DNA of 64,000 nucleotides, taken from assembly GCA_950295325.1 (NCBI GenBank), contig OX485805.1:53592758-53656757 (forward strand), in the 5' to 3' direction. Of the stretch, positions 38,409-58,209 are shown piece after piece (position 1 is the stretch's first letter; each line of letters starts with the position of its first letter). Under the pieces are notes generated by a model. The model was not told the DNA's origin. It made no database searches and was given only the letters and a program-made list of their open reading frames with translations. Source of the DNA: Polytrichum commune. Its lineage: Eukaryota; Streptophyta; Polytrichopsida; Polytrichales; Polytrichaceae. Position numbers and translations under genes: made by a program.

Positions 38409-40967
38409 ATGGATTCTGGTGCACACAGGCCATGCAACGAAGGAGACGAGGTTGTATACTACGTGAACAGGGATTTTGCTGGATGGGTGGAGCAGCGTGT
38501 GAGGAGGCGGGTGTACATCGAGTTGAAATTGGAATGTACTCGCAATCGATCTCGCGATGTCCAGAAGGCGCGGGATGACTGGTTGTGCCTGTATTGGAAA
38601 TCATCTTTTCCAAGCAAATTGCGCTTGACAGATCACCGGGTGGTGGGTTGCCCGTGTGGACCTGTGGATTCCACTGGCACAAAGTGGGAGCTTCCAGTCT
38701 ACCCAAATTTGAAGACAGCCAAACAAGGTAAGGACTTGAAACTGGCGTTGCAACGAGGAGACGGCTCCGTATGGGACAATTTGCAGGACAATTCTATTTG
38801 GTTGGAGCTGAACCCGGAGCTGAGGGAGCCCACTTTCCCGCCCGCTGGAGCAAGAGTGCAAGTGCGAATGTTCATGGAGCCCTCACTTGAGAGATTGGCA
38901 GCTTGCCCATCCATAGCAGGAGGTAGCGAGCAATGGCAACCGAGACCCGAACGCACACCCAAGCCACGTACTGCACCAGCCGCGGCACCGAATTTTGTGG
39001 ACCTCGAAGATGACGGCAACGATGACTATGAAGCGTCCCATCCTCACAACAGGAAGCGTCGTCATGCGGAGATGGAAGAAGGCCGTCCGAAGAAGCGTCC
39101 TCATTCAGAGATGGAAGATGGACATGGCGTTTTCCACTCTCCCCGGCAGTTCAGACCTTCGCAAAGGAAACCCAACCCAACCCCTCCCCGCCGAAGTGCT
39201 GGTGGTGAACGGCAGAGAACGCACCCGCCACGAAACCCACCACGACCGTCGCGTCCTTCGTCTGGCCCGCCTCCCCATCCCATTCTCGTAACGCCCATCC
39301 AGACTCGCAGCCCATCGCCAGAGAGGGTTGCGATTCTGGCTCCTCCTACTCCCGTTCCGCATGTGCCACATGCAATCCCTATGCCATCGCAGACGCCTGT
39401 CCCGGAGAAGGAGAACTCAACAGGTGAGCATGATATTGCTGCAACGTTACGAAAGGAGCGGCAAGCCTTTTACATCAAGGCGGCAAGCCTTTTACATCAA
39501 GGCGGCAAGTGCAGCACATGCGTCTGTGAGGATGGACATCCCCAAACCGAGTCTAAGGCCTCCAATACAACCCCCCGGTCTGTTCCACTTGTTGGTGTGT
39601 GGTTTGTTAAAATTTGATGTGGAGTCCGGCGAGTTCCCTGCTTTCCAGGAAGAGGTTGACAATTGGAAGAAGGACCCATCATTCATGGACCGGTTGTTTG
39701 CTGCCTATGGCAGATTCTACTCACCTTCGCATCAGGTACAACCTCTATGCATTTCACAATTCACCTGAGCTTTCATTTACTCATTCAGGTTTTGCAATCA
39801 CTGTTGTAACATGCGACAGTCTGGTCATTGTGGATTGCAGTCAGCATGCCCCCCTAGTCCGCCTTCTGTGCAAGCTTAGTAACATGTGTTCATGTAAGGT
39901 TTAGACGTTGTAACATGTGGAGTGGATGCGGGTGCAGGCTAGACCGGACGTAGGACCAGCAATCACAGAGACTGTCGTGGCCACAATGACCAAGGTAGGG
40001 GACGAATCCGGAATTGCGAATGAGATTGCTGCTCTATTGAGCTACATCGAACACATATTTGTCATGCGTAACCTGATGAAGCAGTGCAAGCAGTGGGACG
40101 ATGACCGTCAGGCAAAGGTTAGTGCAGCCATCGCAACGGCCATGACTCGGTGGGATGACGAGCATTACCCACGTTTGCTTGAAGCAACATGGGGTTGGCA
40201 CCCTTTCTATCCATCATTTGTGGTTAATCCCCTTTGCACCAGCTTTAAACCCGCATACCCTTTGTATCATTCAGTTGTAGAGGGTTTACATGTGCATTCT
40301 CAGCTCTTGCAACAATCTCATGTTGAAAGGGTTTACCCTGTCCCATGGTCTGTCCTTCTTCTTCGTTGTTTCCTTAAGTATCACACCCTATCCCCCCCCC
40401 TCATATCGCACCCTTTTAGTGGCGGATCCGTCGGCAATGTTACAAGATGGCTAAAGCTGGCAGAAGAAGACGAAGGAGATGGTTGGCGTGCGTGGCATTT
40501 GGCGACCACGTACTTGAAGGAAGAAGGCTTCCTTGTGTTCGCAGGGGCAAGGCCAGTGGAATCGAAACAACGGTGGCTTGTAGAGGTGGATGCAGCTTGG
40601 ATGGATTTGAAGAATCCAACCCCTGGTTGGTGGGCAGAATTGCATGTATGGTGCCAATCCACCCAGTTCAGGGCAGTCCAGGACATGGCCTTTCACGACA
40701 AGCCGTCCTGGCTCAATGCCTGGGTGATTCGTGATCAGCCCGCAACCTCTTTGCCCCCCCTTGCATGTTACGACAGCTGGCTTCAACATCGGGAGGACTT
40801 GGACATTGGCTATGTCCTTGCCAACCCACGTAGTTTTCCTCACCTCTTTTTGCAACCTGAGCTTCCAATTTCAACATCCATTCCCAATGACTTCTTTGTA
40901 ACATGCCCGTCTGTGTAACATGTCCCCTTGCAGATGTCATGGTGCCCTCGCTGGAGCGTACAAAGTA
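38409..40967 (+). pseudogene. Unidentified multi-exon gene, 5' part (split by the 17-kb element)
   Basis: The reading frame starts at ATG 38409 (MDSGAHRPCNEGDEVVYY), follows a structured N-terminal region and then a Pro/Arg/Ser-rich disordered region (about 38900-39420). A 22-bp tandem duplication (39458-39479/39480-39501) shifts the frame; after it the second frame continues (DVESGEFPAFQEEVDNWKKD). Donor GT at 39736 and acceptor AG at 39938 join SPSHQ to ARPDVGPAIT. Exon 2 (39939-40829) has TRWLKLAEEDEGDGWRAWHL and GWWAELHVWCQSTQFRAVQD. A second intron (40830-40933) joins LANP to VMVPSLERTK. The exon is then cut at 40967 and resumes at 58210. No known family is recognised. Whether 40220-40419 is another intron is unclear; it reads as low-quality coding but stays open. 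Confidence 0.6.
39458..39501. repeat. 22-bp tandem duplication breaking the frame
   Basis: GCGGCAAGCCTTTTACATCA plus AG occurs twice back to back (39458-39479, 39480-39501), followed by a third partial start GCGGCAAG. Twenty-two is not a multiple of three. Before the duplication the long upstream frame is open; after it the downstream frame (ASAAHASVRMDIPKPS...) is the one that continues to the splice donor. Confidence 0.9.
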
Positions 40968-41002
40968 CAGGGTTGTCTATTGTGTCGTGACGGAGGGTAA
41001 TC

Positions 41003-41038
41003 CCGGCATAATGTCGTGCCGTCACGACATTATGCCGG
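41003..41038. repeat. Subterminal hairpin at the left end of the hAT element
   Basis: CCGGCATAATGTCGTG and CACGACATTATGCCGG form perfect 16-bp arms separated by 4 bp. Hairpins and short repeated words near the ends are common transposase-binding features in hAT elements. The right end has tandem GTCACGACACGACACGACATGACGG words instead. Confidence 0.85.
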
Positions 41039-41191
41039 ATGCTGTCTTCATCCTGACGGATTTGAATTTTACCGATTTTTTTGTGTAATTACATTAACCC
41101 AATTCGGACACGTAGGATTTACAATGTCCACGTGTGATGACATGTCAGCAAAGTAAAGGTAAAGTGGGGAAAATTTTACTAGAGCCCGTCC

Positions 41192-41427
41192 GCCCCCCCG
41201 TCCGCCCCCGTTCCCAACCCGAGTTCGCCCATGTTCCCCCCCGTCCGCTCCCGCTCCCCGCCCCGTCCCCGCCCCGTCCGCTCCCCCCCCCTCCGTCCGC
41301 TCCCCCCCCCCTCCGTCCGCTTCCCCGTCCGCCCCCCGTCCGCTCCCCCCCTCTCCCGTCTGCCCCCCCCCCCCCCCCCCGTCCGCTCCCCACCCTCCCC
41401 CGTCCGCTCCCCACCCTCTCCTGTCCT
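41192..41427. repeat. C-rich GTCCGC minisatellite array 1a
   Basis: Irregular tandem GTCCGC(T/C)CCCC... units, C-rich on the plus strand, starting about 220 bp inside the left end of the hAT element. It continues as array 1b (41785-42062) on the other side of an inserted LTR fragment. All six frames are Pro/Ser/Arg or Gly/Arg low-complexity and are not called as genes. Confidence 0.9.
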
Positions 41428-41784
41428 GTTATGCCTCTTTGAACCTTGGCAGTCCCGGGAGTCACTCCCAGGCACTGCTGCACCAGGGCGCTGTCCCGGG
41501 ACAGCGCCCCACTCAAATGGCCATAACTCCTAGCTCACACCTCCGATTGAGGTGTTCTTGAGCATTCTAGAATCACCACGCCATGAGCTACGCATAACTC
41601 ATGGCCTTACCCTCATGCTTCCTAGTCTCAGTGGGTGGGAGGCGTTCCCAACGCCCGGGGCCCTCACCCACACTAGGATCACTTGGGCCCTCTCACCAAT
41701 GGCGTCACAAGTCCCGGGTGTCACTCCGGGGTCCCCCTTGTGCCCATGGTGTTTCGGGCACTCCTTATGGAGAGGTGCGCGACA
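41428..41784 (-). mobile_element. Truncated LTR (family LTR-A) inside the C-rich array
   Basis: On the minus strand it starts with the LTR 5' terminus (TGTCGCGCACC at 41784) and runs about 357 bp through the 24-bp palindrome (41486-41509) to GGCATAAC, where it stops. The remaining LTR, about 600 bp, is missing. Both flanks are GTCCGCTCCCCACCCTCTCC-type array, so it inserted into (or was captured by) the array and then lost one end, probably by recombination. Confidence 0.88.
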
Positions 41785-42062
41785 CCGTCCGCTCCCCACC
41801 CTCTCCCGTCCGCCCCCCCGTCCGCTCCCCCCGTCCGTCCGCTCCCCCGTCCGCTCCCCCCCCCCCCGTCCGTCCGCTCCCCCCCCACTCCCCCGTCCGC
41901 TCCCCCGTCCGCTCCCCCGTCCCCCCCTCCGTCCGCCCCCCCCGTCCGCTCCCCCCCCCTCCGTCCGCCCCCCCGTCCGCTCCCCCCCCTCCGTCCGCTC
42001 CCCCCCACTCCCCCGTCCGCCCCCCAGTCCGCTCCCCCCCCTCCGTCCGCCCCCCCGTCCGA
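41785..42062. repeat. C-rich GTCCGC minisatellite array 1b
   Basis: Continuation of array 1a: dense GTCCGCTCCCCC and GTCCGTCCGC units. It ends only about 10 bp before a TATA box (42072) that fits the hAT transposase gene. Confidence 0.9.
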
Positions 42063-42071
42063 TTCGAATAC

Positions 42072-42078
42072 TATAAAT
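42072..42078 (+). promoter_or_regulatory. Putative TATA box of the hAT transposase gene
   Basis: TATAAAT, directly after array 1b and about 235 bp upstream of the first Met (42309) of the transposase. Position fits a core promoter; no experimental support. Confidence 0.5.
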
Positions 42079-42308
42079 TGAGGGTTCAAGGTGCCATTTT
42101 TGCCTCCACTGACATAGTGTGTCTCAAGTCTTTTGATTCTCCTTTGAGGAGTGAGGATTGAATGCGTGAGACCCGAATGCAGAGGATACTTTGTCCAATC
42201 TAGTGACTGTGAATTAGGGTTGCCCTTGTGGCACTCTTGAATAGGACCTAGTATGCGATCAAAGTTACTTGCTCTAACTTGTTTGTATTTGCAAGTTTTG
42301 TTGAAGTC

Positions 42309-45300
42309 ATGCCACGCCGAAATGATGCATGGGATCATTGGTACGAGGATAAGGGGATGGTTCCCGGTAAATCACAAAGGCAGGTTAAATGTAGGTTTTG
42401 CCCGTTCGTCATATCTTACCGAGGAAATAGAATGTTGGCCCACCTTGGTTATAGACCTCCTGTAGGGGGTGCTTGTGATGTTTCCACATGTAGGATGGTT
42501 CCCCCGCATATTAGGGTCTTGTTTGAACATTGCGGAGGCATTGTGCCCTTACATGTACGCATTGTAAATGAGGACTCTCCGGTGCCAGATATTGTACCTC
42601 TGGAGCCTATTATAGCGGACTCCGTAATTAGTGAAACAGAGCCTTTGCTTATGTCCCAATCCACTCAACATTCTGATGTTGTGATATATGGCACACCTCC
42701 TCGTGAACTACGTCAACTCAACATAACGGAGGGGTTCAATGTGTCAACAAAACAACTCCTTGATAAAGCATGGGCAACGGCTTTTTATGAAGCTAACATT
42801 CCTTTCAACATTGTGAGACATCCTGCATTTGTTAATGCTGTGCGTGAAACTGCCCGTCATCGAATGCTAGCCTACACACCACCATCGTACAATGCCATCC
42901 GTACGAAGTTGTTAACTGATAAAAAGGTTGACCTAGATAGGCAAGTGAAGGAGAAGCTGGGGAATTCCGTTGACAAATATGGCGTTACACTATGTTGAAA
43001 CCGACCTCTCCTAAACGTTCTTCAATGTGGCACAAAGGGAGACGTTTTCTTGGGTACCATTGACACCACAGGAAATCACAAGGATCATGTCTACGTTGCT
43101 GCTCAAATTCAACCATTTGTGGAAAAGGTTGGTCGACATAATGTGGTCCAAGTTTACACCGACAATGCCCCAGTTATGGCCTCCGCTGCTCGCGACTTGA
43201 TTCGAGCAAATCCCGATCTATATTTTCAAGGATGTGCTGCACATTGCCTAGATCTCCTCTTAGAAGATTGGGGGAAGGAGGAATGGGTGAAAAAGTTGGT
43301 AAAAAAAAGCGCCATATTTGTGTATTTGTTAAAAACCATCATGCTTCTCAAGCTATATTCCGGAGGTTGTTACCAAATCTCTCACTCCGCCTACCTGTAG
43401 AGACCCGTTTTGCAACGAACTTCATCATGATAGAACGTCTTCTCCAAGTACGCAATGCTTTGGAAAAAATGGTGGTTGATGAGGATTGGCCTACTCTAAT
43501 GCGTGATATGAGGAGGAGATCTCGCACCTCTTATATGAAGGGCTCTGCTGTGCGAAGCTTTATACGTTCTGATGGATTCTGGAACACGTGCAAAAATTTC
43601 TTGTATATGGTGATCCCGGTTGTTAAAGCTCTTCGTGTATTTGATGGCAAGGCGCCTGCAATGGGAATGGCTTGGAGGGTCATGCATGATTTACAAACCC
43701 ATATTCGTGGATTCAGTAAACCTCCATTTCGCTTAAGCCCTGAGCTTGCTGCAAATGCTATGCTAACGTTTCAAAATAGATGGAGGTTGATGTTGAATGA
43801 TCTACATTGGGCTGGAGCGATGTTAAATCCGCTTCTACATGGTTGGGCCCCACTCCATGAGGATGACAATTCGAGGACAATCCTAAATCGAGTTCTTCGC
43901 AGGTTTGCTCAAGATGAGGACACTTATGTCCAAATCCTCCACCAGTACCAAGATTTCCTTGAAAATCGAGGGCCTTTTGCTAATTCTACTGACTCGAGCG
44001 TGCATGCCGCACCTCTCCATGAATGGTGGGATGCAATGGGAGGTGGAGCTAAAGCCCTCCAAACAATAGCAAGACGTATCCTTGCACAAGTATGTTCTGC
44101 ATCCGCATGTGAACGCAATTGGAGCATGTACTCATATGTTCACAACAAGAGTCGCAATCGCTTGCAGCATAGTCGTGCTGAGGACCTCGTCTACATATAT
44201 ACCAATAGTAGGCTCATTCGACATCGGAGGGGCCCAAGACCTGCGCAATGGTACGAATTGAACGAGGTCCATTCTGACGATGACCTTGACGAAGAAGATG
44301 ACAACGAAGATGACGTGGATCCAAATGATAGGGCCGGAAATGATGATGACAACAATGTTGATGACATCGACTTTGATTTGGATGACCTCGATTCCGAGAA
44401 TCATGATTCAGAAGATGAGGATGGCAATGATAGTGATGGAAACCTTGGGGTGTTTGATTTTGATGAACCGGATGTCCCCCAACATAACAACGGAATGCAT
44501 GATGATCATGAGGGGTCTATTGGAGGACCGCCTTTTGAAACTCTCCACACTGGACAAGGGTTTCGCCCTGACCATAATGTTGCTATGGGGGCAAGTGAGA
44601 ATGTAGGAATTGAAGTAGATTCCTTGCAACCTCGGAGCGATTATCTTTCTTTTGGTGAAGGTGACAATGTACTACCCGCAAATGAGCCAACGCACGTTCA
44701 ACAGGATCCACTTCCAGCCCGAGTACATTCTGAATCCATAGACGCCTCCCTCATATCCAACCATTGTGTAGAAGATCAAACGCCCAATGTTACTGAAATA
44801 CCTACAACTCGATTCCGTGCTCTTCAAAGAACTGCATCCACCTCTACGGTGCAAGTGCATGCACAAGGTCAACGTCGTCCTCTCACTCGAAATATTGCCA
44901 ATACTTCTAGATTGGGTGTTTCACGTGCAACTACGGTGGGTGCTACTTTGGTTGCTATACACAATGTTTCAAGAAATGTTACTACTGAGGCGCCACGTCG
45001 TCAATCTGTTCGTCGACATGTTGTTGAGAACATACCAATTGCAATTCCGTCCGCATCAGTTTCACTTCCACATAGTCAATCCAATGGAACAGGTGGCCTT
45101 GGAGTTGGAGGCGGAAGTACAACGGGGGATGTTTTTATAGATGGAAGTAGAGATGAAGTGCACTCAAGTCGTGGTCCGGGTGGAGGGCGTCAGATAACTA
45201 CGAGAGGTGTCAAACGTACTAGGAAGAGGTATCAGGGAAGATCGCTTCCGTTTACTGCTGAAGACTACAATGAAGATGAGGGTAGTCCACATCTAGATGA

Positions 45301-45484
45301 AAATGGCATACAGGATGCAGAGGGCTCCCGGCCGACCAAGAAGATAATTTTCTCACAACGTGACCGAGAGTTGCATCTTCGGAGCGCGACTCCCCAAACG
45401 GATGATGATTGCAGCACAGACGAGTCTGAAGAGGACCCAAGATGTGTCAAAGCAAATGATCCCACAGTACGGATTCGAACGTAA
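42309..45484 (+). pseudogene. hAT transposase (BED finger, DUF659, hAT dimerisation), disrupted
   Basis: Starts MPRRNDAWDHWYEDKG with a BED-type finger (CRFCPF...HLGY). The DUF659 region (about 42720-43300) is followed by a catalytic-core segment with VYTDNAPVMASAARDL and GCAAHCLDLLLEDWGKEEW. The C-terminal hAT dimerisation motif is clear: HEWWDAMGG, then SASACERNWSMYSYVHNKSR, RNRLQHSRAEDLVYIYTNSR (about 44010-44210). A long Asp/Glu-rich tail (44270-44470) and Ser/Arg-rich C-terminus follow to TAA at 45484. Lesions: TGA at 42996-42998, exactly where the usual C-D-G-W motif (first catalytic Asp) should be, with that motif absent; and a one-base frameshift in an A-run near 43303. A polyadenylation signal AATAAA lies at 45642. 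This copy cannot make active transposase. Confidence 0.9.
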
Positions 45485-46183
45485 TGGTTTTGCACAAATG
45501 TGGTATTTCGGTGCTCCCACGTACTCCCATAATTTATTACTTACGTCAAAATTGATACAAGTTACAACCTTAGGGCCTTCGGTAAGACATTTAGACCACA
45601 AAGCGAACGTTACCTTCGAAGTTGTATCATTTTATTATAGTAATAAAATTATTTATTGCATGTTTTTAAAATTTTTAAAAATATAATATGGTTGTCAACT
45701 TAGCATTGCAATTAATGTCCGACAACATGTTATGCCTTTATTAATTACTATTTTGTATTATTCTTACTGTGAATGGAGTTTTATGTTTATTTATTAAGCT
45801 TCTTAAAGAAAATACTTTTATAAATATTGCAATCCCCTATTGCTCGATTGTACATGCTTTGTTGGTGACATCCTCTTTTTGAGGACCTTTCTATCCGTTT
45901 TATATCATTATATCTTTATGTGGTATTCAATATTGACTATGTAGTCAATAGTACTTTTGGTTAGACTATCATATGAATTACTAATATTCAAGTAAGTTTT
46001 TAAAAGTTTCGAATAACATTAAAACATATGGCATCCATATGCTATCTTTTACACGATCTTAGAAATGACAACTTGTCGGTAAATCCTCTTTATATTACAT
46101 ATTCTTTGAACATGAAATATGTTCATTGTATCCAAAGTCTTCCTCCGTTTCTATACAGCTTTCTAAACATGGTACAAAAATGC
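45485..46183. other. AT-rich spacer between convergent genes
   Basis: 3' flank shared by the plus-strand hAT transposase and the minus-strand zinc-finger gene. AATAAA at 45642-45647 fits the plus gene. Nothing else recognised. Confidence 0.55.
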
Positions 46184-48488
46184 CTAATCCGAATCTGAAT
46201 CGAGGTCTATTCTAGCTGAAGTAGATCCTCGTCGTGCTCGAGATGATTTCCCCGCTTCCATGCTTCGCGTTGTTCCACGGGTGAGGTATGGACGACTACC
46301 AGGAGACAATTGAACGGCATTACGTGGTCTAGGCCCACCATTTAGCCATCTCAATACCACATCATCCGCAACTCTATGCAAGAGTGCATCAATTGCAGCC
46401 AACTGCAACCTATTCTTGTGGTACCCCACCTCTAACTGCAATTCATATCTCGGATCACGTTCCGTAGGCATGTCATCTACATCTTCTTCCAAATCATGCT
46501 CCGATACTGATTCGAGACTTGCTGCATTGTACCAAGGAGGCTGAATGCCTCTCTTTAATTGTCTGCTGGTTGTATCCCAATGTCATTCAAGAGTTTGGTA
46601 TAAAAATCTTTTCAAGCCATGATCGGGGGGCTTGTTGGGATACAACTCGTCTGCAACATACAAAATTTGACGTGCATCCCGTGTCCAGTCGCCATCTCTG
46701 TTCTCGTGCCATAGCTCAACTTTGGCACAATTGTATAACCAACTCCACTCAATATTCTCCCCATCAAACTCTTGAAGATCGAAGGGAAAGTCCCATGGCT
46801 TTAATACCCAGTCGTTAGGCATGTAATCCCGAAGGCCAAATTGGAGGTACAAACGAGGGTGGAAGGATGATCTGCAATGAGGACATTGGCGTTTCTTGAT
46901 CATATTCCCTATTAGACATTGTGGATGGAATTGGGCCCCACATGATCCAACTTGATAGCATCCTTCCGGGCCAAATGGAGATTGACAAATCGCACACGCG
47001 GTTCCGTCGAAGACCATTGTATGTGGATTTGGCCATAACAACTCACCCCTCATGCGGAATGGATATTCATGCACTTGGGTCACATTCCAATGGTGATTTG
47101 GGTCGGTCACTTGACGCCAATCGATGCTCCCGTTTGGCAATATCCACTCATTAGTTATATCCCACCTACTAGGGTACATATGCTCGTCTTCTGGCCATGA
47201 CGTGAGCATCATGTTCCGCATTCTCTGATTGTGGTTCCATTCATTCTGGATGCTCTCAAACTCAGCTTCAAATTGACGAGCCTTGGCCATAGCAAGCAAT
47301 GTGTTTGTCCTCATATATTCTTGCGCTCCACAATCGCATCAAACAGGAATTTCTTCAACCTTGCATTTTGCTCCTCCAGTCCGTCAATCTTGGCTTCGTG
47401 ATCAACAACCACTTCATTGACCACTTGAAGTTATTGTTGGATGTCCACCACCTGCTTTTGCAAAGCCTTTATCTTTCCTCGCATTACTTCATTCCTCATA
47501 CATACTTCCAGAGCTTGTGACTTTGCAATCTTGGCCTCCTGTAAAGCTGCGTCCCTCTCTACTTCCAAAGACTGAAGGTTAAGTGATGTACTACTTGAAC
47601 TGCTAGCCTCCCCCATCGTAAGTGTTGCAACTCGATTTTCCAACTCGAAAATCATCGTTTTATACTCACGAATTTCCAACGCATGTTGCTTACGCAATTC
47701 CTCCATTCTGCTCTCCATCGGGTCCGCTCCAAGTTCACCAAGGTTTACCTCGTCTAGGACCTCATTAACCACGTCGTTGATCAGGTTGTTGACCTCGACA
47801 TTTGCCTCCATGCCTCATCCACATGCTCAAACGCCTCCTCGATGGCCATCTCCACGTCATTGGCTGGTCGTTTACGATTACGTGGTTTTTTTGGTTCCCG
47901 ACCCTCTGGAATTGGGGCCCCAGGCTCGTCCACTAGTCGAGGATTCCTCCTGAACCACTCCGGAACGGGAGTGTATGGAATATCTGGAACTGTGCATTTA
48001 GTGAATGCAATTCCAATACCCCCAAATTTTTGATTATGCAGAGCAGCCAAACTTGACTAATCCACCCTAACTCGCAACACGTGCTCCGCATACATCATAC
48101 ACGCCACCGACTTTGGAATTGCACTCTTGGGCCATCTATCCAAATTAAAGATTCTTCTAAGTATCGTTATGAATCTCCATTTTGCCTCCACGTCATCAAG
48201 CTGCATATAACTCGCACTGATGGCCTTGCAATGTCGCTCGTGACAAGGTCTTGGCCACAACCGATCAAAGTGAGGGAAGCCCACGTACTGCATTGCAGTC
48301 TTCGCTGACCACGGTTGTGGTACATTCTCCCAACCTGCCCTGGCTTTTTGTGTATTGTCATCATAAACATCCCACTCCAACCCAGCGGCCTTGCGTACAT
48401 GTGATCTGTGACAACCTGATCCTCCACTTGCCATGTCCCCAGATCCTCCACTTGCCATGTCTGGAAATCCTTCACTTGCCGTATCCAC
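46184..48488 (-). pseudogene. Coiled-coil/C4HC3 zinc-finger protein, decayed single gene
   Basis: Four minus-strand frames form one ancestral reading frame. N-terminal domain 48488-48057 (HRSHVRKAAGLEWDVYDD, FPHFDRLWPRPCHERHCKAI); Pro/Lys linker 48050-47781 with KKPRNRKRP; coiled coil 47811-47300 (EELRKQHALEIREYKTMIFE, then KIDGLEEQNARLKKFL); zinc-finger part 47314-46184. The finger reads C-x2-C-x8-C-x4-C-x4-H-x2-C-x10-C-x2-C (CAIC...FHPQC...CPHC), a C4HC3 order as in RINGv/PHD fingers. In-frame stops: TAG at 48057, TAA near 47431, TGA near 46583. Frameshifts lie near 47800 and 47315. Function unknown; the family seems to travel with the hAT element. A minus-strand TATA box lies at 48924. Confidence 0.7.
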
Positions 48489-48923
48489 CCAAATTGTAGT
48501 TTCTAATTCTAATCTAGAATTCTAATTTTTAAATTACTAATTGCACTTCATAATAGTGCTACAAAACATCCAAACATACACTTCAAAATAGTGTTGCTAT
48601 GGAATTAGTTCAAAAATGTCGTTAAAAATTAAATTTCAAAAATTCAGCACACCCTTCGAGCACCCCGCTACCAGCGCTCACGCAGAGGCCAGTTGACTGG
48701 GCGCGTCATAAGGAATATGCCAAAAAGGCAATATGCCACGTCACAAGAGAACGGGTCCACGTGGATCACACCTACAAACAGGTCAGTAAAAAGAGTATAA
48801 AAGGATCCCAAAAAAGGGATCCTAAACTCCTCCGAGCACCCCGCTACCCCGCACTCTGTAGTAGAGGAGGGTCGTCCGGGCGCCCACAAGAAGTGGAGTG
48901 GGGTATGTAAGTGGTCCCCTCCA

Positions 48924-48931
48924 CTTATATA
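48924..48931 (-). promoter_or_regulatory. Putative TATA box of the zinc-finger gene
   Basis: TATATAAG on the minus strand, a few bases from the edge of array 2 and about 435 bp upstream of the first Met at 48488. Same arrangement (array, then TATA, then gene) as at 42072 and 53595. Confidence 0.5.
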
Positions 48932-48937
48932 CCCCTC

Positions 48938-49555
48938 CATCCGCTCCCCGTTCCCACCCTGTTCGCACCCGTTCCCCACCCAGTCCGCACACATTCCCTA
49001 CTGTCCACGCCCGTTCCCCTCCCAGTCCGCACTCGTTCGCACCCGTCCGCACCCGTTCCCTCCCGTCCGCTCCCGTTCCCCTCCCAGTCCGCACCCGTTC
49101 CCACCCCCGTCCGCGCCCGTTCCCCCCCAGTTCGCACCCGTTCCCTCCCGTCCGCTCCCGTTCCCCTCCCAGTCCGCACCCGTTCCCGCCCCCGTCCGCA
49201 CCCGTTCCCCTCCCAGTCCGCCCACGTTCCCCTCCCAGTCCGCACCCGTTCCCTCCCAGTCCGCCCGCGTTCCCCTCCCAGTCCGCACCCGTTCCCCCCA
49301 GTCCGCACCCGTTCCCGACCGTCCGCGCCCGTTCCCCCCCCCGTCCGAGTCCACACCCGTTCCTGCCCCCGTCCGCACCCGTTCCCTTCCGTCCGCCCCC
49401 TCGTTCCCCTCCGTCCGCTCCCCTCCGTAGGCTCCCATGTTCCCCTCCGTCCGCCCTATGTTCCCTTACGTCCGCTCCAACGTTCCCTCTCGTCCGCTCC
49501 ATGTTCCCCTACGACCGTTTTAGAGTTCCCATCCGTCCGCTCCCGCGTTCCCCTT
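48938..49555. repeat. C-rich array 2 (GTCCGCACCCGTTCCC units)
   Basis: Tandem units of about 15-18 bp, CAGTCCGCACCCGTTCCC and variants, C-rich on the plus strand. The 219-246-codon frames across it, and the Gly/Arg/Thr-rich minus frames, are translations of the repeat and not genes. Confidence 0.92.
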
Positions 49556-49564
49556 GAATCTGCA

Positions 49565-49705
49565 CTTTTTAATTTTTTTGGGAAGTTTGGACATAGTCTC
49601 GGTTTTTTGGCTCTCAAAAATTCATATGAAGTCCAAAAAATGAGTTCTTAGTATCCATGGATAGGTAATGAAGTCCTGTACATGAATATGCAATAATATT
49701 TCTAC
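49565..49705 (+). repeat. 140-bp satellite companion motif, copy 1
   Basis: TTTTTTTGGGAAGTTTGGACATAGT, CGGTTTTTTGGCTCTC, AAAAATTCATATGAAGTCC, ATGAGTTCTTAGTATCCATGG, ATAGGTAATGAAGTCCT, ATGAATATGCAATAATATTT and CTACTGC occur in this order. The same block recurs at 53040-53180 and 57465-57605. In the other two copies it stands before a C-rich array; here it follows array 2, with only a short array-like remnant (CATTCCCACGTTCCCCCATCCGC) after it. Confidence 0.9.
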
Positions 49706-50067
49706 TGCACATTCCCACGTTCCCCCATCCGCACCACATCTAACTTAGGCCCTTCACAAATAATATATGTGACACTAAATATCATAACCGGTGTACTTAT
49801 TCACAAAAAACTAATGAAGGATCCCTCAAGCAACAAAGTAACCAATGTAGTATGATGACCAACAAATTATCACCCCATAGAAGTATGCAATAATAAGCGG
49901 TTGGTTGAAATTTTATAAAAAATATATATCATAGAAGTGGTATAACATATTGTACAAGTAATAGTTTTATTATTGCGACGACGGTACAAATGCCCTTTAT
50001 AAATCACATATATGAACAAACTATGCATGATTTAATATTCCACTTCATTCCGTCAACTTGACTTCCG

Positions 50068-50622
50068 TCATGGCAACCTCGTAGATGCTTGTGGCTTCCG
50101 TCGAGGGTCCATTTTTGGGAGAGGATTCGGTCGAAGTAAATCAACATAGCTAATCGTTCGGTCTTTCATCCGTTCCTTCAATGGTAGCCGATGAGGCGAT
50201 AATCCTCTCCTTTTCTTACGAAAAGGCAAAGTCCTTGAAGATTCTCCCGTTACCTTGACATCTTCAATGTCGATTGAATTGTCATCCACATCCCCGGGCT
50301 TTACCCAAATATCCACGCTCAAATCAACCACATCATTTGGATCTCCACCCACGTTTTTTGTTAGGTCCTTCTCCACTGCATTGATCTCGAATTTCACTGC
50401 ATATCATCGTTGGTCCTCCTCCTTCCTCAACTTCCATGCTTGTCTGGATTGTGAGAAGGGGGTCATGACATAGTCATCACGAAATCGATCTCTAGCACTT
50501 CTCTCATCTCTCTCACGCTCGAGTGATGGATTGAATGGAATATTGGGTTCACCTAAATTTGCTATCTCCTCATCACATCCTAGACCCTCAAACATGTCTC
50601 TCTTCTCTCCCATCCTATCCAT
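50068..50622 (-). pseudogene. Small unidentified minus-strand gene with one nonsense codon
   Basis: The frame from Met at 50622 (MDRMGEKRDMFEGLG, FNPSLERERDERSARDRFRD) runs into TGA at about 50404 and continues in the same frame (VKFEINAVEKDLTKNVGG, VDLSVDIWVKPGDVDDNSID, basic FRKKRRGLSP) to 50068. A TGG-to-TGA change would explain the stop (QR-stop-YAVKF). About 183 codons; charged, probably disordered, no family recognised. It lies between array 2 and the 165-bp tandem repeat inside the hAT element. Confidence 0.5.
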
Positions 50623-50889
50623 GATACTCTACTCTCGTTATATGTATGAGTCTAAATGCTCTACTTATATACTGAGCTCAAATGACTTTATGAAATTTAC
50701 AATATTTGATGTAATCCAAGATGTAGAGGATCCAATTCTCGTTGGTAAGATAAAGACAACACAATAGGAATAAAAAGAAAGTTGGTGAAGTCAAAAAGTT
50801 AGTTGCACTTTTAGAAAAAGTCCCCCCGACACCCGCATTAGAAACCTCTTTGATACCTCTTTGAAGCTTCTATATTTGATGGGTTGTCC

Positions 50890-51373
50890 TTTCATTCAAC
50901 AAATCACATATTTGTGCTTCAACCTTAGTGGTTCGTATGGTTTCACAACCCACACGCATTCGAATGTCATTTTAATTCAACAAACTACATATTTGTGTTT
51001 CAACCTTTGTAGTTCATATGGTTTCACAACGCATTTCAGGCATCCGAATGTCATTTTCATTCGACAAATCACATATTTGTGCTTCAACCTTAGTGGTTCG
51101 TATGGTTTCACAACCCACACGCATTCGAATGTCATTTTAATTCAACAAAGTACATATTTGTGTTTCAACATTTGTGGTTCATATGGTTTCACAATGCATT
51201 TCAGGCATCCGAATGTCATTTTCATTCGACAAATCACATATTTGTGCTTCAACCTTAGTGGTTCGTATGGTTTCACAACCCACACGCATTCGAATGTCAT
51301 TTTAATTCAACAAAGTACATATTTGTGTTTCAACCTTTGTAGTTCATATGGTTTCACAACCCTAAACCCCTAA
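50890..51373. repeat. Tandem repeat: 165-bp higher-order unit of two ~82-bp monomers
   Basis: ACATATTTGTG occurs at 50906, 50987, 51071, 51153 (approx.), 51236 and 51318 (approx.). Alternate monomers differ (CCACACGCATTCGAATG against GCATTTCAGGCATCCGAATG), giving a 165-bp two-monomer period, about three copies. Because 165 is 55 codons, an open frame of 170 codons runs through it with a repeating peptide; I treat this as a by-product. The array ends in ACCCTAAACCCCTAAACCCTA (51361-51381), a short telomere-like tract. Confidence 0.88.
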
Positions 51374-51385
51374 ACCCTACGTCTA

Positions 51386-52613
51386 CGTCATTCCAAATTG
51401 CTACCACATATGTGCCATTGTTTTGTTCTCACACTCATGTAGAAGTGTTTCCATACATGGTTTGAGGGTTTAGGTTCCCAGCTTTCCAACGAACCCACCC
51501 GCTTTTTTTTACGATGCCTACAGCGAAAGATAAACGTTCGCAAATCGCGAGGACTACTTCAAGTTGGCACAATCTCTACTTAGACATATAACTTATGGTA
51601 TACATTGGGGTTTTTAGAAGGGGTCATGAACGCACGTGATTCTCAAACATAATGTAGAGTGCATCCCCCGAGTTCCCATAGGCTTCATAAAAATATCTTA
51701 CCAACACCTTACACAAATTAGAACATTATAGAAAAGAAAATTAATCTGGTCCACATTGATATTAAACTAGGGAATTGGTGTGGGCTTAAATTTAATGTGG
51801 CCCACATTAGTGGTCAATTGGGGGGGGTGCACTATACTAAATCCGTATGAGTATATGTGAGTGCACAAAAGAGGTATTGATTTGAACTTTGTTGTATTAT
51901 GTATACATATTCTTTACAGAATTATAAGTTGTAGTTATGTAAATATATAGAATAATTTAAAAAAATATACAACATCTCTACTAACTTGTATGGTAGTGTC
52001 ACTAGATTTTATAGAATAAGGTTTATTTTATTTTAGTATTGGCTTAAACTGGTACATAAAAAGAACCAACCACATGTGAACATACGATCTTACATATCAT
52101 TTGATGGTAGACTTCAAAACAATAATTGCATTAGCTTTTATGACATGTATTACAAATCAGATTATAGGAGGATTGAATGGAAACATATGCTTAGGGACTT
52201 GGAAAAAGGGTCGGACGTGGCCTACCATGACATTCTTAACAAATTTGATTTGATTTGGGGGGTCAAAGGTCTTATTGTGACCCGTAGCAACTTAGTCCCT
52301 ACTTGGAAGGATAGGCCTCAAATGAGCATTATTTATAGATTTCCACTTAGGCTGCGCTGTTTCGGCTGGGTTGGTTGTATTTTGAATTTGAATTTTCAAT
52401 TTGTGCCAAAAAAAGAATAAGACATATATTGCAAATCTAAGGGCCGGTTCACAATATGGCCAAACTTTGAGAGGTTCAACATTTGGACCAATGAAAATGC
52501 TGAAATGCCCAAAGTCCGTCCTCTCGGCCTTCACACTAGAGGCCGAAGTCCAAAGGACGTCGCCTCCAAAAGAGCCTAGGTGGCAACACTTTTAGGAAGT
52601 TATGGCGCCAAGA
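51386..52613. other. No supported gene
   Basis: AT-rich DNA. The plus frame 52076-52420 (114 codons, with RRIEWKHMLRDLEKGSDVAY) reads somewhat like protein but has no recognisable motif and may be a captured fragment. Not called as a gene. Confidence 0.4.
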
Positions 52614-52682
52614 GTTCGGCCTCTCGAGCAAAGTTTGGGTATAGCAAAATGCTCAACCCAAACTTCCGTCGAGAGGCCGAAC
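52614..52682. repeat. Inverted repeat GTTCGGCCTCTCGA with GAGAGGCC words around it
   Basis: The arms GTTCGGCCTCTCGAGC/AAAGTTTGGGT and their reverse complement (ACCCAAACTTCCGTCGAGAG...GAAC) face each other over about 17 bp. The word GAGAGGCCG or its complement recurs at about 52545, 52617, 52670, 52832 and 52990. A 30-bp direct repeat (CTTGGCCTTTGGAGGCTTCAC) lies at about 52792 and 52876. Probably a small nested repeat; identity unknown. Confidence 0.65.
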
Positions 52683-53039
52683 TTTTTTTTCATTAAAATA
52701 ATCAATCATTGACAAGATCTTGGCCGTTAGATTGGAGGGGTTATTTTGAGCAAGGAATAAAGTGGCATGCTCCTTTGAGTTTGGACTTTGGGCTTGGCCT
52801 TTGGAGGCTTCACACTTTGGCCATCCAAGCCGAGAGGCCGTGGGAGTTCATGGCCAAAGGTTTGGACTTTGCGCTTGGCCTTTGGAGGCTTCACCTTATG
52901 CCCAACTAAGGCTATCCTTACTATATTTTATTGGCTATTTTCAGTTCATTTCTTTGGACTCTTAACAAATTTGGGCCACTCAATCGCACGGCCTCTCGAC
53001 TTGGACGGCCATAGTGTGAACTCGGTCATTTACACTTTT

Positions 53040-53180
53040 TTTTAAAAGTTTAGACATAGTGTCCGTTTTTTGGCTCTCAAAAATTCATATGAAGTCCAAA
53101 AAATGAGTTCTTGGTATCCATGGATAGGTAATGAAGTCCTCTACATGAATATGCAATAATATTTCTACTGCCAGAAAATA
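53040..53180 (+). repeat. 140-bp satellite companion motif, copy 2
   Basis: Matches the block at 49565 nearly base for base (TTTAGACATAGTGTCCG, CTCTCAAAAATTCATATG, GAGTTCTTGGTATCCATGG, AATATTTCTACTGCCAG) and leads directly into array 3. Confidence 0.9.
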
Positions 53181-53214
53181 CATGGACGCAATTCCACGTT
53201 GTTCCCCTGCCCCC

Positions 53215-53545
53215 CTTCAACCCGTTCCCTCCCGTCCGCCTCACGTTCCCCACCCGTCCGCTCCACGTTCCCCTCCGTGCGTTCACGTTCCCTCCCGTTC
53301 CCTCCAGTCCGCCCCACGTTCCCCTCCCGTCCGCCCCGCGTTCCCCTCCCGTCCGCCCCACGTTCCCCACCCGTCCGCCCCACGTTCCCCTACCGTCCGC
53401 CCCACGTTCCCCACCCGTCCGCCCCACGTTCCCCTACCGTCCGCCCCACGTTCCCTCCCGTCCGCCCCTCGTTCCCTCCCGTCCGCCCGAGTTCCCCTAC
53501 GTCCGCCCACTCGTTCCCACGCTCCCCATACGTCCTTTTCGTGCC
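53215..53545. repeat. C-rich array 3 (CCGTCCGCCCCACGTTCCCC units)
   Basis: Tandem units of about 20 bp, C-rich on the plus strand, upstream of the kinase gene. A TATA box follows about 50 bp after the array. The open frames here are repeat translations. Confidence 0.92.
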
Positions 53546-53594
53546 CCATGTCAAATCCGACCGGGATCCCATAATGATTGTGCACCGCTTTGCC

Positions 53595-53603
53595 TATATA
53601 AAG
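53595..53603 (+). promoter_or_regulatory. Putative TATA box of the kinase gene
   Basis: TATATAAAG after array 3, about 225 bp upstream of the first Met (53828). The intervening leader has CACTCACTCATT-type simple repeats (53770-53815). Confidence 0.55.
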
Positions 53604-53827
53604 CCGTGAGGCTTTAGTTCCCCTCACTTTCCTCTCCTCCCACCACAAAGGGACCCGAGACCTTGTTGCCGTCCCAAGGATAGCGGCACCGCGCGGGTCT
53701 CAGGGGGTTTGGGAGGGCAGGGCAAATTGTGGGGGAACCCTCGCAATTTTTTTTCCAGATTCACTTGCTGATTTCTACATTCACTCACTCATTTCTACAT
53801 TCACTCACTCACGCGGTTTTTTTCACG

Positions 53828-56729
53828 ATGGAGGGGGAGGACATTGCTCCTTACCAAGACGAGGATACGAGGGTGCACCGTGCTTGGTTCCAACGCACTC
53901 CATCTGCGTATACCGGAGAGGGTACGGGAAGCGATGCCGGAAGTGGAAGTACTGCAGCCCGTCCCCCACGTCCAGATCCTTTTCGGTTTGGCGAAGAGTT
54001 CTTTGTTGTTGGTCATTCAGGAGGCAACCAAACACGTGGAAGCCATGGAACACGTGGGAGTCGGGGAAACAGTGGCCTTAGAGGGAGAACAGGAAGGGGA
54101 CCAAGCTCAGGCAGTTCCACAGATATAAATGCAGCCACTCGTGGTGAGTCCGTGCCACCACGATCTCCGACACGGCAGACATCAAGACCGGAGAGCCCTG
54201 CACGTGATGTACCTCAGGGTTCGAAGCATGGTGAAAGACGGGGACAGAAACGCCCAGCAGTTTCGGAAGGGACGGAGGAGGGGTCCGTGGTATCAGGTTC
54301 GCAATCGAGGAAAAAGAAAAATAGAGGCAAACGCGACCCGCGGATCGATGAGGCTCGAAACCATTGTAGGGTCGTGCTGTTGGAGTGGTTTAGAAATAAC
54401 AGCATGGTTTATTTGGAAAAAAAAATACCTCAATGATGGTACAAAGGGTTTAGAGTTGGTGAGGAACGAATTGATGCTTATTCTCACGGAAGCCACGGCT
54501 GGACCGGAGTTTGAAGAAGCTAGGGGCATGAACGATTGGGACACCTGGATTGAACAACAAGCCAGGGAAGCAATCTACAATCCAACAATGGCATATGATG
54601 CTCTGCATCCTGGCGAGGGAAATAGTAGTGGCAGGAAGTCCGAGCTGTACATGAAGCTAGAGAATTGGAAAAGAGGCGTAATAGCAGCAAAAAGAACATC
54701 CGCCCGCAACCTTCCCATTTTTATTGACAGGCAGATGGCAGACAACATTGCCACTCAGGGCCGGCAGGGTGTCATATGGTTGCCTAGGAATGCGGAGATC
54801 AAAGCCTTGGATAAGAAAATCTTCCAAGGGACCTTCGGAGTGGTGCGGAGAGTCACAATTCATGGAGCATCATTCATCCCTAGCTGGATAGAGTGGGCTG
54901 GGAAGACCATGAAGGCCACGAATAGTCTGGAAAACCGAAAGGAGCGTTCAATTGAAGCATTGGCCGGCGTGTCCAGTAGATCATCCTGGGGTAATCAAGC
55001 TACAATACCTCAATATGAAAACATACGAATCCTATTCGATGTGGTGGAATGGAGGCTCCTTGAAGAACATGAGGGTCTATGACTTCAGCGTTCCGGAAAC
55101 CCACGAGCGCACAATCCTTCAAATGCCTGGGGCAGACTTTGAAGCACGGAAACGGTTGGTTGTATATCGAAGGCATCGAGCTTATTTGGCATGGGCTTTA
55201 ATGTGCATTGTGGATGTAGTGCACAAGCATGACGTGTTGCACAATGACCTTAATCCCAACAATGTCATGCTGCATTTCCCACAAGACCATGATAACACGG
55301 TTTACATTGGTGTGTGTGATTGGGGCATGGCATCCTGGGGAGGTGAAGACGCACTGTCGCAACCCTTGCTAGCCCCCCCTTGACCATCTTGCCAATTTTC
55401 AATTCTAGCAAAGGTTACGAGCGCTAACCATTCGCATTCCGCCATGCTAATGGTTAGCTCCTCCTACCCCGGACCTTATAGTTCATAGGAGGGAACCAAC
55501 CCTCCTACTTTGCTTTCGGGACTCACCCCTTAATCGGTAACTCATTTCTTGGATGTGGACTTCCATCCATGGAAGTCCAATCCTATGTTGATCATCGCGT
55601 TGCCGGAGCAACACTACAACAACCCGAACCATACTAGGCAACTATGGCCTCACAATGGGCCAAAGCCCATGGAGGCCTTGCCGTTCGGCCTCGGGTGGGT
55701 GAGGCCACACCACCTCACCCATATAAGCCTCTAGGACTCTACGCGGGGCCCCTACCCCACCGTCAACCAACCTCTTGTCTCTCTACCAAGAGTTGGGGCC
55801 AAGTGGACATTCTCCCTTAGCCGCTGGGCCTAGAAGCCCCCAGCAGCTTCAGACCATCATAACTTCCTTGTATGATGTCTGATTCCAGCAACCAACCACT
55901 CCATCTTCATCTACGCTTCACGTAGATGCCGATGGACTCCTCACTTGCCCCATTCGGGCAAGTGGTGAGGAAGTTATGCCTGTTTGAACCCTGGCAGTCC
56001 CGGGAATCACTCCCAGGCACTGCTGTAGCAGGGCGCTGTCCCGGGACAGCGCCCCACTCAAATGGCCATAACTCCTAGCTCACACCTCCGATTGAGGTGT
56101 TCTTGAGCATTCTAGAATCACCACGCCATGAGCTACGCATAGCTCATGGCCTCACCCTCATGCCTCCTAGTCTCCGTGGGTAGGAGGCGTTCCCAACGCC
56201 CGGGGCCCTCACCCACACTAGGATCACTTGGGCCCTCTCACCAACGGCGCCACAAGTCCCGGGTGTCACTCCGGGGTCCCCCTTGTGCCCATGGTGTTTC
56301 GGCCACTCCTCATGGAGAGGTGCGCGACACACACCCTCCAACTATGGAAGAAATTCAGTGGATGAGATGAACAAGCACAAAGCAAAATACAACTGTGCTG
56401 GTCCAGAATTATTCCATGTACGAGGGCAGCGTGGAACATCCACCTCTCCGGTGAGGATGGCTCGGAAACATAGGCACACGTTTCTCTCGGAGTCCTTCTC
56501 AGTGGGTGCTTTAGCAAAGAAGATTTATGCCAGGGATGCGACTTCCCCCTTGTTTCAGCTAAACAGTGATCCAAATGGCTTGAATATGCGGTTTGAGTTA
56601 GCATTGGATTCATTGACGAAGACCAATCCAGCGGAAAGGTCAACCATCACACACGTAGTGAACATTTTGAAGTCCCCTCCATACAACATGGTTAACCCGA
56701 CAATGTGCTTCCGTGACACTGCAAAATAG
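53828..56729 (+). pseudogene. Atypical protein kinase gene, interrupted by a solo LTR
   Basis: Met at 53828 (MEGEDIAPYQDEDTRVHRAW). The N-terminal half is Gly/Ser/Arg-rich and disordered, with a basic patch SRKKKNRGKRD. The C-terminal half is a kinase domain: glycine loop GTFGVVRRV (about 54834-54860), a Lys-bearing AGKTMKA (about 54898-54920), catalytic loop HNDLNPNNVM (55240-55270) in place of HRDLxxxN, and VCDWG (55311-55326) in place of DFG. After the LTR the frame resumes with SNYGRNSVDEMNKHK, CAGPELF (the APE position), SFSVGALAKKIYARD and a C-lobe ending at TAG 56727-56729; AATAAA lies at 56793. Lesions: one extra A in an A-run near 54420, a frameshift near 54960, and the 975-bp LTR at 55355. 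The Asp and Asn of the catalytic loop are kept, so an active ancestor is plausible. Substrate unknown. Confidence 0.85.
55355..56329 (-). mobile_element. Solo LTR (family LTR-A) inside the kinase gene
   Basis: 975 bp, TGTCGC...GCGACA ends, nearly identical to 297-1282, including the 24-bp palindrome. Flanking pentamers are CGCAC (55350-55354) and CACAC (56330-56334), one mismatch. It interrupts the kinase frame between the CDWG motif and the GPELF motif. The short hairpin near 55905-55930 differs from that of the copy at 297. Confidence 0.93.
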
Positions 56730-57464
56730 ATTTTTTTTATTTTTTTTGCAGCAATTTTGAATCATACCAATTTTGTAACCGTTGGAGATGTAAATAAAGC
56801 CATCATTTTTTCATACAAAACTTGTATATTGTATGAGGTTTATGGATCTTAGTGCAATGTTCATACTCCATGAGGCTTTTGCTCCATGATCGAGAAGAAG
56901 TCTATGGGAGGCTAACCAAGGTTCTCACCTCTCGTGAGGCCACATCGTTCTTTCACATCGTTGTTATCACATCCATGTGCTAAGTTCAAGTTACCTATAG
57001 TTGTTTGTGATATGTCTTGCCAAAATGCAATTACCTATATTTATTCTAATTTTGGTATGCCACAAAATATAGTCAACTATAGTTATATCTAGTTAACTAA
57101 AGTTGAGCACAATATTGCAATAGTTATATCGGTTGTACACGTGATCCTCAACATCTCTAAATGTTAACTTTCTTCTACTCCCCACATATTGCACACTATA
57201 AATGTTAAACGTGTTAAATGTTAACAAAATGGTACTCCCTTCTTTGTAAATCTGACTCTATAAACGTTAACGGATGAAATACAACCATAATATGGATGAT
57301 AAAAACTACACATCCAGTTACATTGATTCATATTCACTCGTGATTTGTAAACTTGATATTGAATAAAGTTTTGATTGGGTGTGCAATTTTATGAATGGTA
57401 TTCTCTCACAAGGACTCTTCACAATTGCTTATATTTATATTTATATAATTCAGAAACAATTTTT
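56730..57464. other. 3' flank of the kinase gene
   Basis: AT-rich. AATAAA at 56793-56798 fits the kinase transcript. No other feature. Confidence 0.5.
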
Positions 57465-57605
57465 TTTGGAATTTTGGACATAGTCTCGGTTTTTTGGCTC
57501 TCAAAAATTCATATGAAGTTCAAAAAATGAGTTCTTGGTATCCATGGATAGGTAATGAAGTCCTCTACATGAATATGCAATATTATTTCTACTGCCAGAA
57601 AATAT
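57465..57605 (+). repeat. 140-bp satellite companion motif, copy 3
   Basis: Same block as at 49565 and 53040 (TTTTGGACATAGTCTCGG, GGCTCTCAAAAATTCATATG, TATCCATGGATAGGTAATG, TTTCTACTGCCAGAAAAT), leading directly into array 4. Confidence 0.9.
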
Positions 57606-57621
57606 ATGGCCGCAATTGCAC

Positions 57622-57930
57622 GCTGTTCCCCTCCCCCCCGCTCCCCTCCGCGTTCCCCCGTCCGCTCCAGCGTTCCCCCCCGTTCCCAACCCCCCTCCCC
57701 CTCCGTCCGCCCCACGCCCCACCCCCGTCCGCTCCACCCCCTCCCCTCCGTCCGCTCCACCCCCCCGTCCGTCCGCTCCACCCCCTCCCCTCCGTCCGCT
57801 CCACCCCCCCATCCGTCCGCTCCACCCCCTCCCCTCCGTCCGCTCCACCCCCCCATCCGTCCGCTCCACCCCCCTCCCCCGTCCGCCCCCGTCCACCCCA
57901 CCCGTCCGCCCCCGTCCGCCCCACACCCTC
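57622..57930. repeat. C-rich array 4 (CCGTCCGCTCCACCCCC units)
   Basis: Tandem units of roughly 17-38 bp, C-rich on the plus strand, about 270 bp from the right end of the hAT element. Open frames across it are repeat translations. The following stretch 57970-58060 (MAKWFTWQGKYTHPRRRF, then GGTAAGT) resembles a short first exon with a splice donor, but no partner exon was found. Confidence 0.9.
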
Positions 57931-58209
57931 CTTAGTCATATTTTTCTACTTTGATTTTAACAGAATGATAAGCACAATGGCAAAATGGTTTACTTGGCAA
58001 GGGAAATATACACATCCACGTCGGCGTTTTCTGCCACATAGGATGCCACCTTGGCAAGAAGGTAAGTATTTTACCCACCCTAGTCCATTCACCCTATGTT
58101 GACCCTACGTGGACCCTATTGTGTCGTGACGGAGGGGTCCGTCACGACACGACACGACATGACGGCACGACACCGTCATGACGTCGCGATAGACAACCCT
58201 GACAGAGTA

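Follow-up and report, generated by a model that had tools for sequence, protein, structure and literature searches.

hAT elements usually measure a few kb and carry one gene. The locus analysed here raises the question of whether a longer stretch of moss DNA, in which a hAT transposase gene (T) lies together with a zinc-finger gene (R) and a kinase-like gene (K), is one mobile element with additional genes of its own or a nest of separate insertions. The window, that is, the whole stretch of 64,000 nucleotides that was analysed, corresponds to C3:53592758-53656757 in a surveyed genome of 407.8 Mb in 64 contigs, seven of which make up about 406 Mb; contig C1 starts with a TTTAGGG array. We find that positions 40968-58201 of the window are one hAT transposon, and we assign a probability of about 0.83 to the reading that it belongs, as a decayed copy, to a large autonomous three-gene hAT family, with K and R as selected accessory genes.

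The element, its ends and a related empty site

The limits of the element are defined by the following features:

40960-40967, no strand: left target-site duplication (TSD) ACAAAGTA, 7/8 match to 58202-58209
40968-40988, plus strand: left terminal inverted repeat, perfect over 13 nt, 18/21 when extended (86%)
58181-58201, minus strand: right terminal inverted repeat, from the repeat comparison within the window, pairing with the left end
58202-58209, no strand: right TSD ACAGAGTA, 7/8 match to the left flank

An earlier note on this DNA had placed inverted termini at 40968 and 58201, surrounded by an 8-bp TSD with one mismatch, and both assignments hold: CAGGGTTGTCTAT at 40968-40980 recurs inverted at 58189-58201 with 13/13 identity, giving perfect inverted ends of 13 bp, and the two flanks agree at seven of eight positions. 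It had also claimed that the outside sequence rejoins, and had proposed an empty site as a check. When the flanks of the element were fused so that a single copy of the duplication remained (198 nt) and compared with the genome, 22 matches were obtained, of which one, C7:21783691-21783888, was full-length at 97% identity and represents an uninterrupted target; two of the others were the halves of the window's own site, and the remaining 19 were partial matches of 73-86%, which likewise cross the insertion point. The alignment to the C7 site is free of gaps over 300 nt and the site carries ACAGAGTA, and it is therefore a related (paralogous) empty site in dispersed sequence. The claimed rejoining of the sequence outside the element holds. 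The sequence that hosts the window element is dispersed, its C7 version showing 98.6% identity on the left side (about 1.5 kb). The 8-bp duplications, the short inverted ends of the CAGGG type, the related empty target and the dimerisation domain of the transposase of an open copy, described below, identify the element as a hAT.

Full-size copies and short derivatives

The ends of the element recur throughout the genome. A search with the initial 200 nt found 594 candidates and one with the final 200 nt found 602, of which 40 were scored in each case, and the exact left-end 25-mer occurs 395 times in the 408 Mb and the right-end 23-mer (one ambiguous base) 344 times, while the reversed patterns occur 0 times. 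A chance origin of the left terminus was rejected on the count of 395 against 0 for the pattern read backwards. In the following, W is the copy in the window, A the copy at C1:49.07 Mb, A4 that at C4:36.31 Mb, B that at C2:2.23 Mb, C that at C6:34.73 Mb, and the "C2" copy lies at C1:46.38 Mb (the label does not refer to contig C2).

As support for a family, the earlier note had named loci measuring 10-20 kb that share ends and gene content and bear 8-bp TSDs, and copies A (15,879 bp, AGTGTTGG twice), A4 (15,734 bp, AAATACCT twice) and B (15,740 bp, CTTCCACA twice) are such loci, each with a perfect TSD and all three genes. Copies A and A4 are colinear with the window copy except for inserts, with an identity of 93-96% in the main aligned blocks and of 87-89% in the end blocks. 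Copy C extends over 17,069 bp, its left end has two mismatches, and its flanks show no matching TSD; the "C2" copy of 14,593 bp is flanked by CCTGCGAG/CCTGTGAG. Ten further end pairs were read on C1, where the genes were located by protein searches only, and nine of the ten have perfect TSDs; the tenth (TSD 0/8, left end 9 kb away from the transposase match) is probably a wrong pairing. Over the 16 full-size end pairs, the TSD is thus 8/8 in 12, 7/8 in 2 and absent in 2, with two of the 12 perfect pairs representing one insertion that was duplicated with its surroundings, as their flanks are shared. These belong to C1:21.86-21.97 Mb, where three neighbouring copies have kinase matches with an identical stop tally; the two copies whose ends were read have identical flanks, and the neighbours look like a single insertion duplicated along with its surroundings. 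Full-size copies span 14.6-18.4 kb, some of them containing nested inserts. Left and right ends are thus paired repeatedly, and the possibility raised in the earlier note that they never occur together elsewhere does not apply.

Short derivatives also exist. Of 31 places with a left end only, four were read, and they are elements of 570, 571, 930 and 4,343 bp, three with perfect 8-bp TSDs and the 930-bp element with 6/8. In these four, the matches to copies A and C comprise ends and non-coding repeats and no genes. As the short derivatives lack K and R, neither gene is necessary in cis, and the derivatives resemble Ds-type or MITE elements that would be moved in trans.

The three genes

Within the window element, the genes lie as follows:

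42309-45484, plus strand: hAT transposase gene T, with DUF659 and Dimer_Tnp_hAT in open relatives, broken in the window
46184-48458, minus strand: finger gene R, three frames in the window copy, with stops
46871-46999, minus strand: C4HC3/RING-like finger of R, Pfam zf-RING_2, 28.7 bits (cut-off 27.3)
53828-56729, plus strand: kinase-like gene K, broken in the window by frameshifts and a nested insert
55355-56329, no strand: 975-bp nested insert in K, ends TGTCGC...GCGACA, flanks CGCAC/CACAC (4/5), absent from A and A4

All three genes are broken in the window, and the window copy is dead. The hAT transposase announced by the earlier note is present in it in damaged form: a stop at about 42997 takes the place of the stretch with DGW, and the frame shifts near 43259-43337. 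Copy B encodes a transposase of 1065 aa, which matches Pfam PF04937 DUF659 with 120.1 bits (cut-off 34.7) and PF05699 Dimer_Tnp_hAT with 39.9 bits (cut-off 21.4). A PDB sequence search with T gave no matches, and NCBIfam gave none for T and R.

The finger gene is likewise present as described, on the strand opposite to T and with ligands in C4HC3 order (C-x2-C-x8-C-x5-C-x4-H-x2-C-x10-C-x2-C). zf-RING_2 is the best Pfam model, with 28.7 and 28.8 bits on two fragments and 24.9 on the copy B protein (cut-off 27.3). The eight ligands are intact in five of six copies, and the sixth has a stop at the second Cys. In copy B, R has 713 aa and its frame ends about 54 aa short of the C-terminus of the window version, whereas stop-to-stop frames elsewhere reach 788 aa.

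K comprises 638 aa in an open copy, with a charged N-terminal half followed by a kinase-like region. The earlier note had counted four genes, and its transposase, finger and kinase genes stand; its small charged protein gene is the N-terminal half of K, which appears as two genes in the window because frameshifts split it there (at least two frameshifts, besides the 975-bp insert). The insert is possibly solo-LTR-like, judging by eye from its ends. The Pfam Pkinase model scores 27.0-29.0 bits on K (27.4 for copy B), below the gathering cut-off of 31.7, and we therefore call the gene kinase-like and regard catalysis as only putative. All 14 copies compared have residues K359, H470, D472 and N477, and D496 and G498 are each found in 13 of the 14; these are positions of the catalytic type. 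With K alone, a PDB sequence search gave one weak match, PknI (E 0.005), with a K alignment it gave 13 weak matches, all TTK (E about 0.008-0.01), and NCBIfam gave two weak partial matches to lanthionine synthetases. A viral origin of K was also considered and dropped, with 48 pattern matches in an alignment scan of viral contigs and 0 confirmed.

A candidate fourth gene, a 110-aa frame at 52088-52417 on the plus strand, is shared by W, A, A4 and B but was not found in either copy of layout C, which suggests a remnant or minor gene, and we do not count it.

Linkage and layouts

The protein searches scored 67 of 252 T, 98 of 181 R and 79 of 224 K candidates, and the linkage counts are lower bounds, with copies whose partner genes went unscored, the window's own T and K included, counting as misses. 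R lies within 8 kb of 59 of the 67 scored T, on the opposite strand in 59/59, K within 20 kb of 43, and both genes accompany 39. Conversely, the 79 scored K have R within 15 kb in 61 cases, T within 20 kb in 44, R or T in 65, and R, T or a family end nearby in 72, which disposes of the alternative named in the earlier note that kinase and finger genes occur only outside such elements. By our own arithmetic, chance linkage of the genes would amount to about 1%. Clustering of the 67 T, 100 R matches out of 103 (all except the three weakest, which are short), 79 K, 40 right ends and the 40 full-length of 79 left-end matches (39 short internal ones omitted) gave 143 clusters, at least three of which merge two elements. 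The left end stands alone in 31, and the other 112 hold a gene or a right end: at least 39 have all three genes, 44 two, 27 one and 2 the right end only, so that at least 83 of the 112 have two genes or more. Long stop-free frames are seen for T in 34/67, for K in 41/79 and for R in 7/100 (thresholds 1060, 638 and 700 aa, respectively).

These data bear on the reading that separate kinase- and finger-bearing transposons came to lie by chance inside an ordinary hAT. The window copy does contain nested inserts, but in copies A, A4 and B one gene set extends across about 16 kb between perfect TSDs, and the genes are linked genome-wide; a nest of insertions is refuted by these observations, and we give it a negligible probability. 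The giant multi-gene hAT family that the earlier note had proposed is supported by the repeated ends, the TSDs, the gene set and the empty site.

The same order of genes in every copy, which had also been expected, was not found. A single scored K lies within 16 kb of 41 T (a count that leaves aside T with two K nearby, copy C on C6, of layout C, among them), and in these K is downstream in 41/41, with the strand opposite to that of T in 29/41 (layout B) and the strand shared with T in 12/41 (layout A, the window type). In whole-copy alignments, the K block of B is inverted relative to A, and in layout C, seen in the two C copies, K lies ahead of the transposase in the order K-T-R. There are thus three layouts, yet one gene set has been retained.

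Tests for selection on the three genes

Nei-Gojobori omega was calculated with copy B as the reference, chosen for its open frames, and since mutation bias affects omega, the null was obtained by 500 random redraws of the substitutions over sites of the same base and the same CpG context. For T, the comparison of B with the C2 copy gave an omega of 0.46 (null 0.85, 0/500) and that with C gave 0.43 (null 0.84, 0/500), with 1 stop observed vs 8.4 expected and 1 vs 6.3, respectively. For R, omega was 0.49 against C (null 0.78, 0/500; stops 3 vs 17.8) and 0.56 against the C2 copy (null 0.75, 11/500; stops 4 vs 18.8). For K, the comparisons of B with C2, C, k62.9 and k7.13 gave values of 0.47-0.50 (0.50 each for C and C2), reached in 0, 0, 1 and 0 of 500 redraws, with observed/expected stops of 0/8.3, 2/8.0, 0/8.2 and 0/8.2, and that with k4_43 gave 0.50 (0/500; stops 2 vs 8.7). 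Omega was not significant against k5_4.68 (0.70, null 0.78, 148/500; stops 3 vs 7.8, 18/500) and k6_21.4 (0.60, null 0.75, 45/500; stops 4 vs 9.7, 13/500). Overall, five of the seven divergent K copies lie far below the null, and the two that are not significant for omega are decayed and stop-bearing. A K pair without B (k16.61/k62.9) gave 1/500 and 0 stops vs 8.2 expected. Close pairs gave weaker results, with 7 (B/A) and 26 (B/W) of 500 for T, 72 (B/A) and 14 (B/W) for R, and 47 (B/A), 25 (B/W) and 27 (B/k16.61) for K. The K null test was run without k56.88, k7_27.9 and A4, copies with 9 and 10 differences being too close to B.

Between subfamilies, amino-acid change and stops are thus below the mutation-matched null in most comparisons, which are not independent because they share B; the stop counts lean toward constraint because B was picked for its open frames, and dead copies may dilute omega or shared history distort it. 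At the level of sequence, this pattern suggests that all three genes are kept together by selection. The dS between B and the C copies differs by gene (0.12-0.15 for T, 0.18-0.19 for K and 0.28-0.30 for R), which suggests exchange between lineages.

Gene capture is common in plant transposons, and K and R might be passive host cargo, captured once and without a role for the element; the spread of short derivatives without K and R fits this, as do the scarcity of full-length R (7/100) and the two non-significant K comparisons. However, the constraint on K and R resembles that on the transposase, stops between subfamilies are fewer than under the matched null, and both genes persist through three layouts, and we consider passive carriage unlikely. 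Slightly less probable still is that K and R have a function in the host and owe their selection to it. Both genes are constrained, and giant fungal transposons can bear host-useful genes, as described in the excerpt of PMC11623301 considered here; on the other side, one copy would suffice for the host, whereas dozens of dispersed copies have long open frames, and K and R are co-retained with the transposase. No host homologue outside elements turned up among the best 79 of 224 K candidates, a set too limited to reveal one. Given the co-retention over three layouts and the constraint, we favour the view that the element is autonomous and that the extra genes most likely reside in it as accessory genes. 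The earlier note had called them cargo, and the extra genes are indeed conserved between copies, but the word is probably too weak, as the genes look selected.

Known systems and possible functions

The moss family resembles other plant hATs in its DUF659/Dimer_Tnp_hAT transposase, short CAGGG inverted ends, 8-bp TSDs and short derivatives, and differs from them in its size of about 16 kb and its two extra genes. The nearest large hAT known to us is ToxhAT of fungal wheat pathogens. According to the part of the source drawn on here, ToxhAT is a composite hAT-like element of 14.3 kb with eight ORFs, for which TSDs were not found (PMC6737239); it shares with the moss family the presence of several genes between inverted ends in a large element, whereas the moss family has other genes, many copies and TSDs. 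In rust fungi, hAT7 and IS3EU transposons carry TET/JBP genes, and TET-bearing IS3EU also has alpha-kinase genes, as far as the portion of the article considered extends (PMC12730594). These are likewise transposons with terminal inverted repeats and an extra enzyme gene beside the transposase, in IS3EU with a kinase, but the enzyme is TET/JBP, the TSDs of hAT7 are 7-bp, and IS3EU belongs to another superfamily and has a kinase of the alpha type; the words RING and ubiquitin are absent from the same portion of that text (PMC12730594). VANDAL DNA transposons of plants encode VANC anti-silencing proteins that target non-coding regions with tandem repeats, and thus share with the moss family, as far as the excerpt of PMC10398659 goes, an additional protein acting for the element and tandem-repeat non-coding regions. 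The element type is a different one, and anti-silencing by the moss element is only putative. VANC is a protein different from K and R. A Pfam scan of the three genes of copy B found no tyrosine-recombinase domain of the kind of a Starship captain, and no hAT with kinase-like and finger genes was found in the open-licence literature, judged from titles and the beginnings of abstracts.

Cut-and-paste is the established mode of hAT transposases. The transposase of the moss family would accordingly bind the ends and cut and paste the element like other hATs, mobilisation being supported by the TSDs and the related empty site, and it would also mobilise the end-retaining derivatives of 0.6-4.3 kb. 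From constraint and co-retention, K and R probably act for the element. The kinase-like and finger proteins may modify or turn over host silencing or repair factors, or control the transposase. As the likeliest class of function, we propose that K and R counter host silencing or control the transposase, for which we see somewhat less than an even chance; this idea is based on the analogy with VANC (PMC10398659) and with the TET/JBP and alpha-kinase genes that rust transposons carry (PMC12730594), as given in the parts of these sources considered. More tentative, and in our judgment rather doubtful, is a signalling pair in which the kinase and the ubiquitin-ligase-like finger would jointly disarm host silencing, perhaps through the GC-rich and tandem non-coding arrays of the element, or license the transposase. 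If this were true, the family would be, to our knowledge, the first case of a hAT that itself encodes a post-translational control over its mobility. A many-copy hAT that keeps K and R through rearrangements would mean that accessory functions have been gained by a hAT, in parallel to VANDAL with VANC (PMC10398659) and the rust transposons with TET/JBP (PMC12730594), within the portions of these articles referred to. As a single genome offers open copies and short derivatives as well as an empty site, the benefit of a transposon from extra genes becomes directly testable.

Further features of the window

The earlier note had seen a promoter-like array at each gene, and GC-rich CCGTCCGCCCC arrays do sit 5' of T, R and K. 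The array scan and repeat comparisons gave the following features:

41185-42056, no strand: GC-rich CCGTCCGCCCC arrays on the 5' side of T, with an interruption at about 41421-41805
48932-49554, no strand: GC-rich array 5' of gene R (array scan)
50890-51362, no strand: 81/165-bp tandem repeat block, with similar sequence in copies of all three layouts and in one short element of 4.3 kb
53223-53518, no strand: GC-rich array 5' of the kinase-like gene (array scan)
57635-57922, no strand: GC-rich array close to the right end (array scan)

The interruption at about 41421-41805 is a shorter repeat that, as read from the sequence, resembles the insert in K, and it is absent from A and A4. Outside the element, a frame on the minus strand at 60281-61021 has a CDCLWAMKGNICKH stretch that by eye looks like the SWIM finger of another transposon, with no Pfam match at E 0.01. 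Between the finger gene and the kinase-like gene lie two inverted repeats, at 52610-52686 (37 nt, 84%) and at 52809-53020 (50 nt, 82%).
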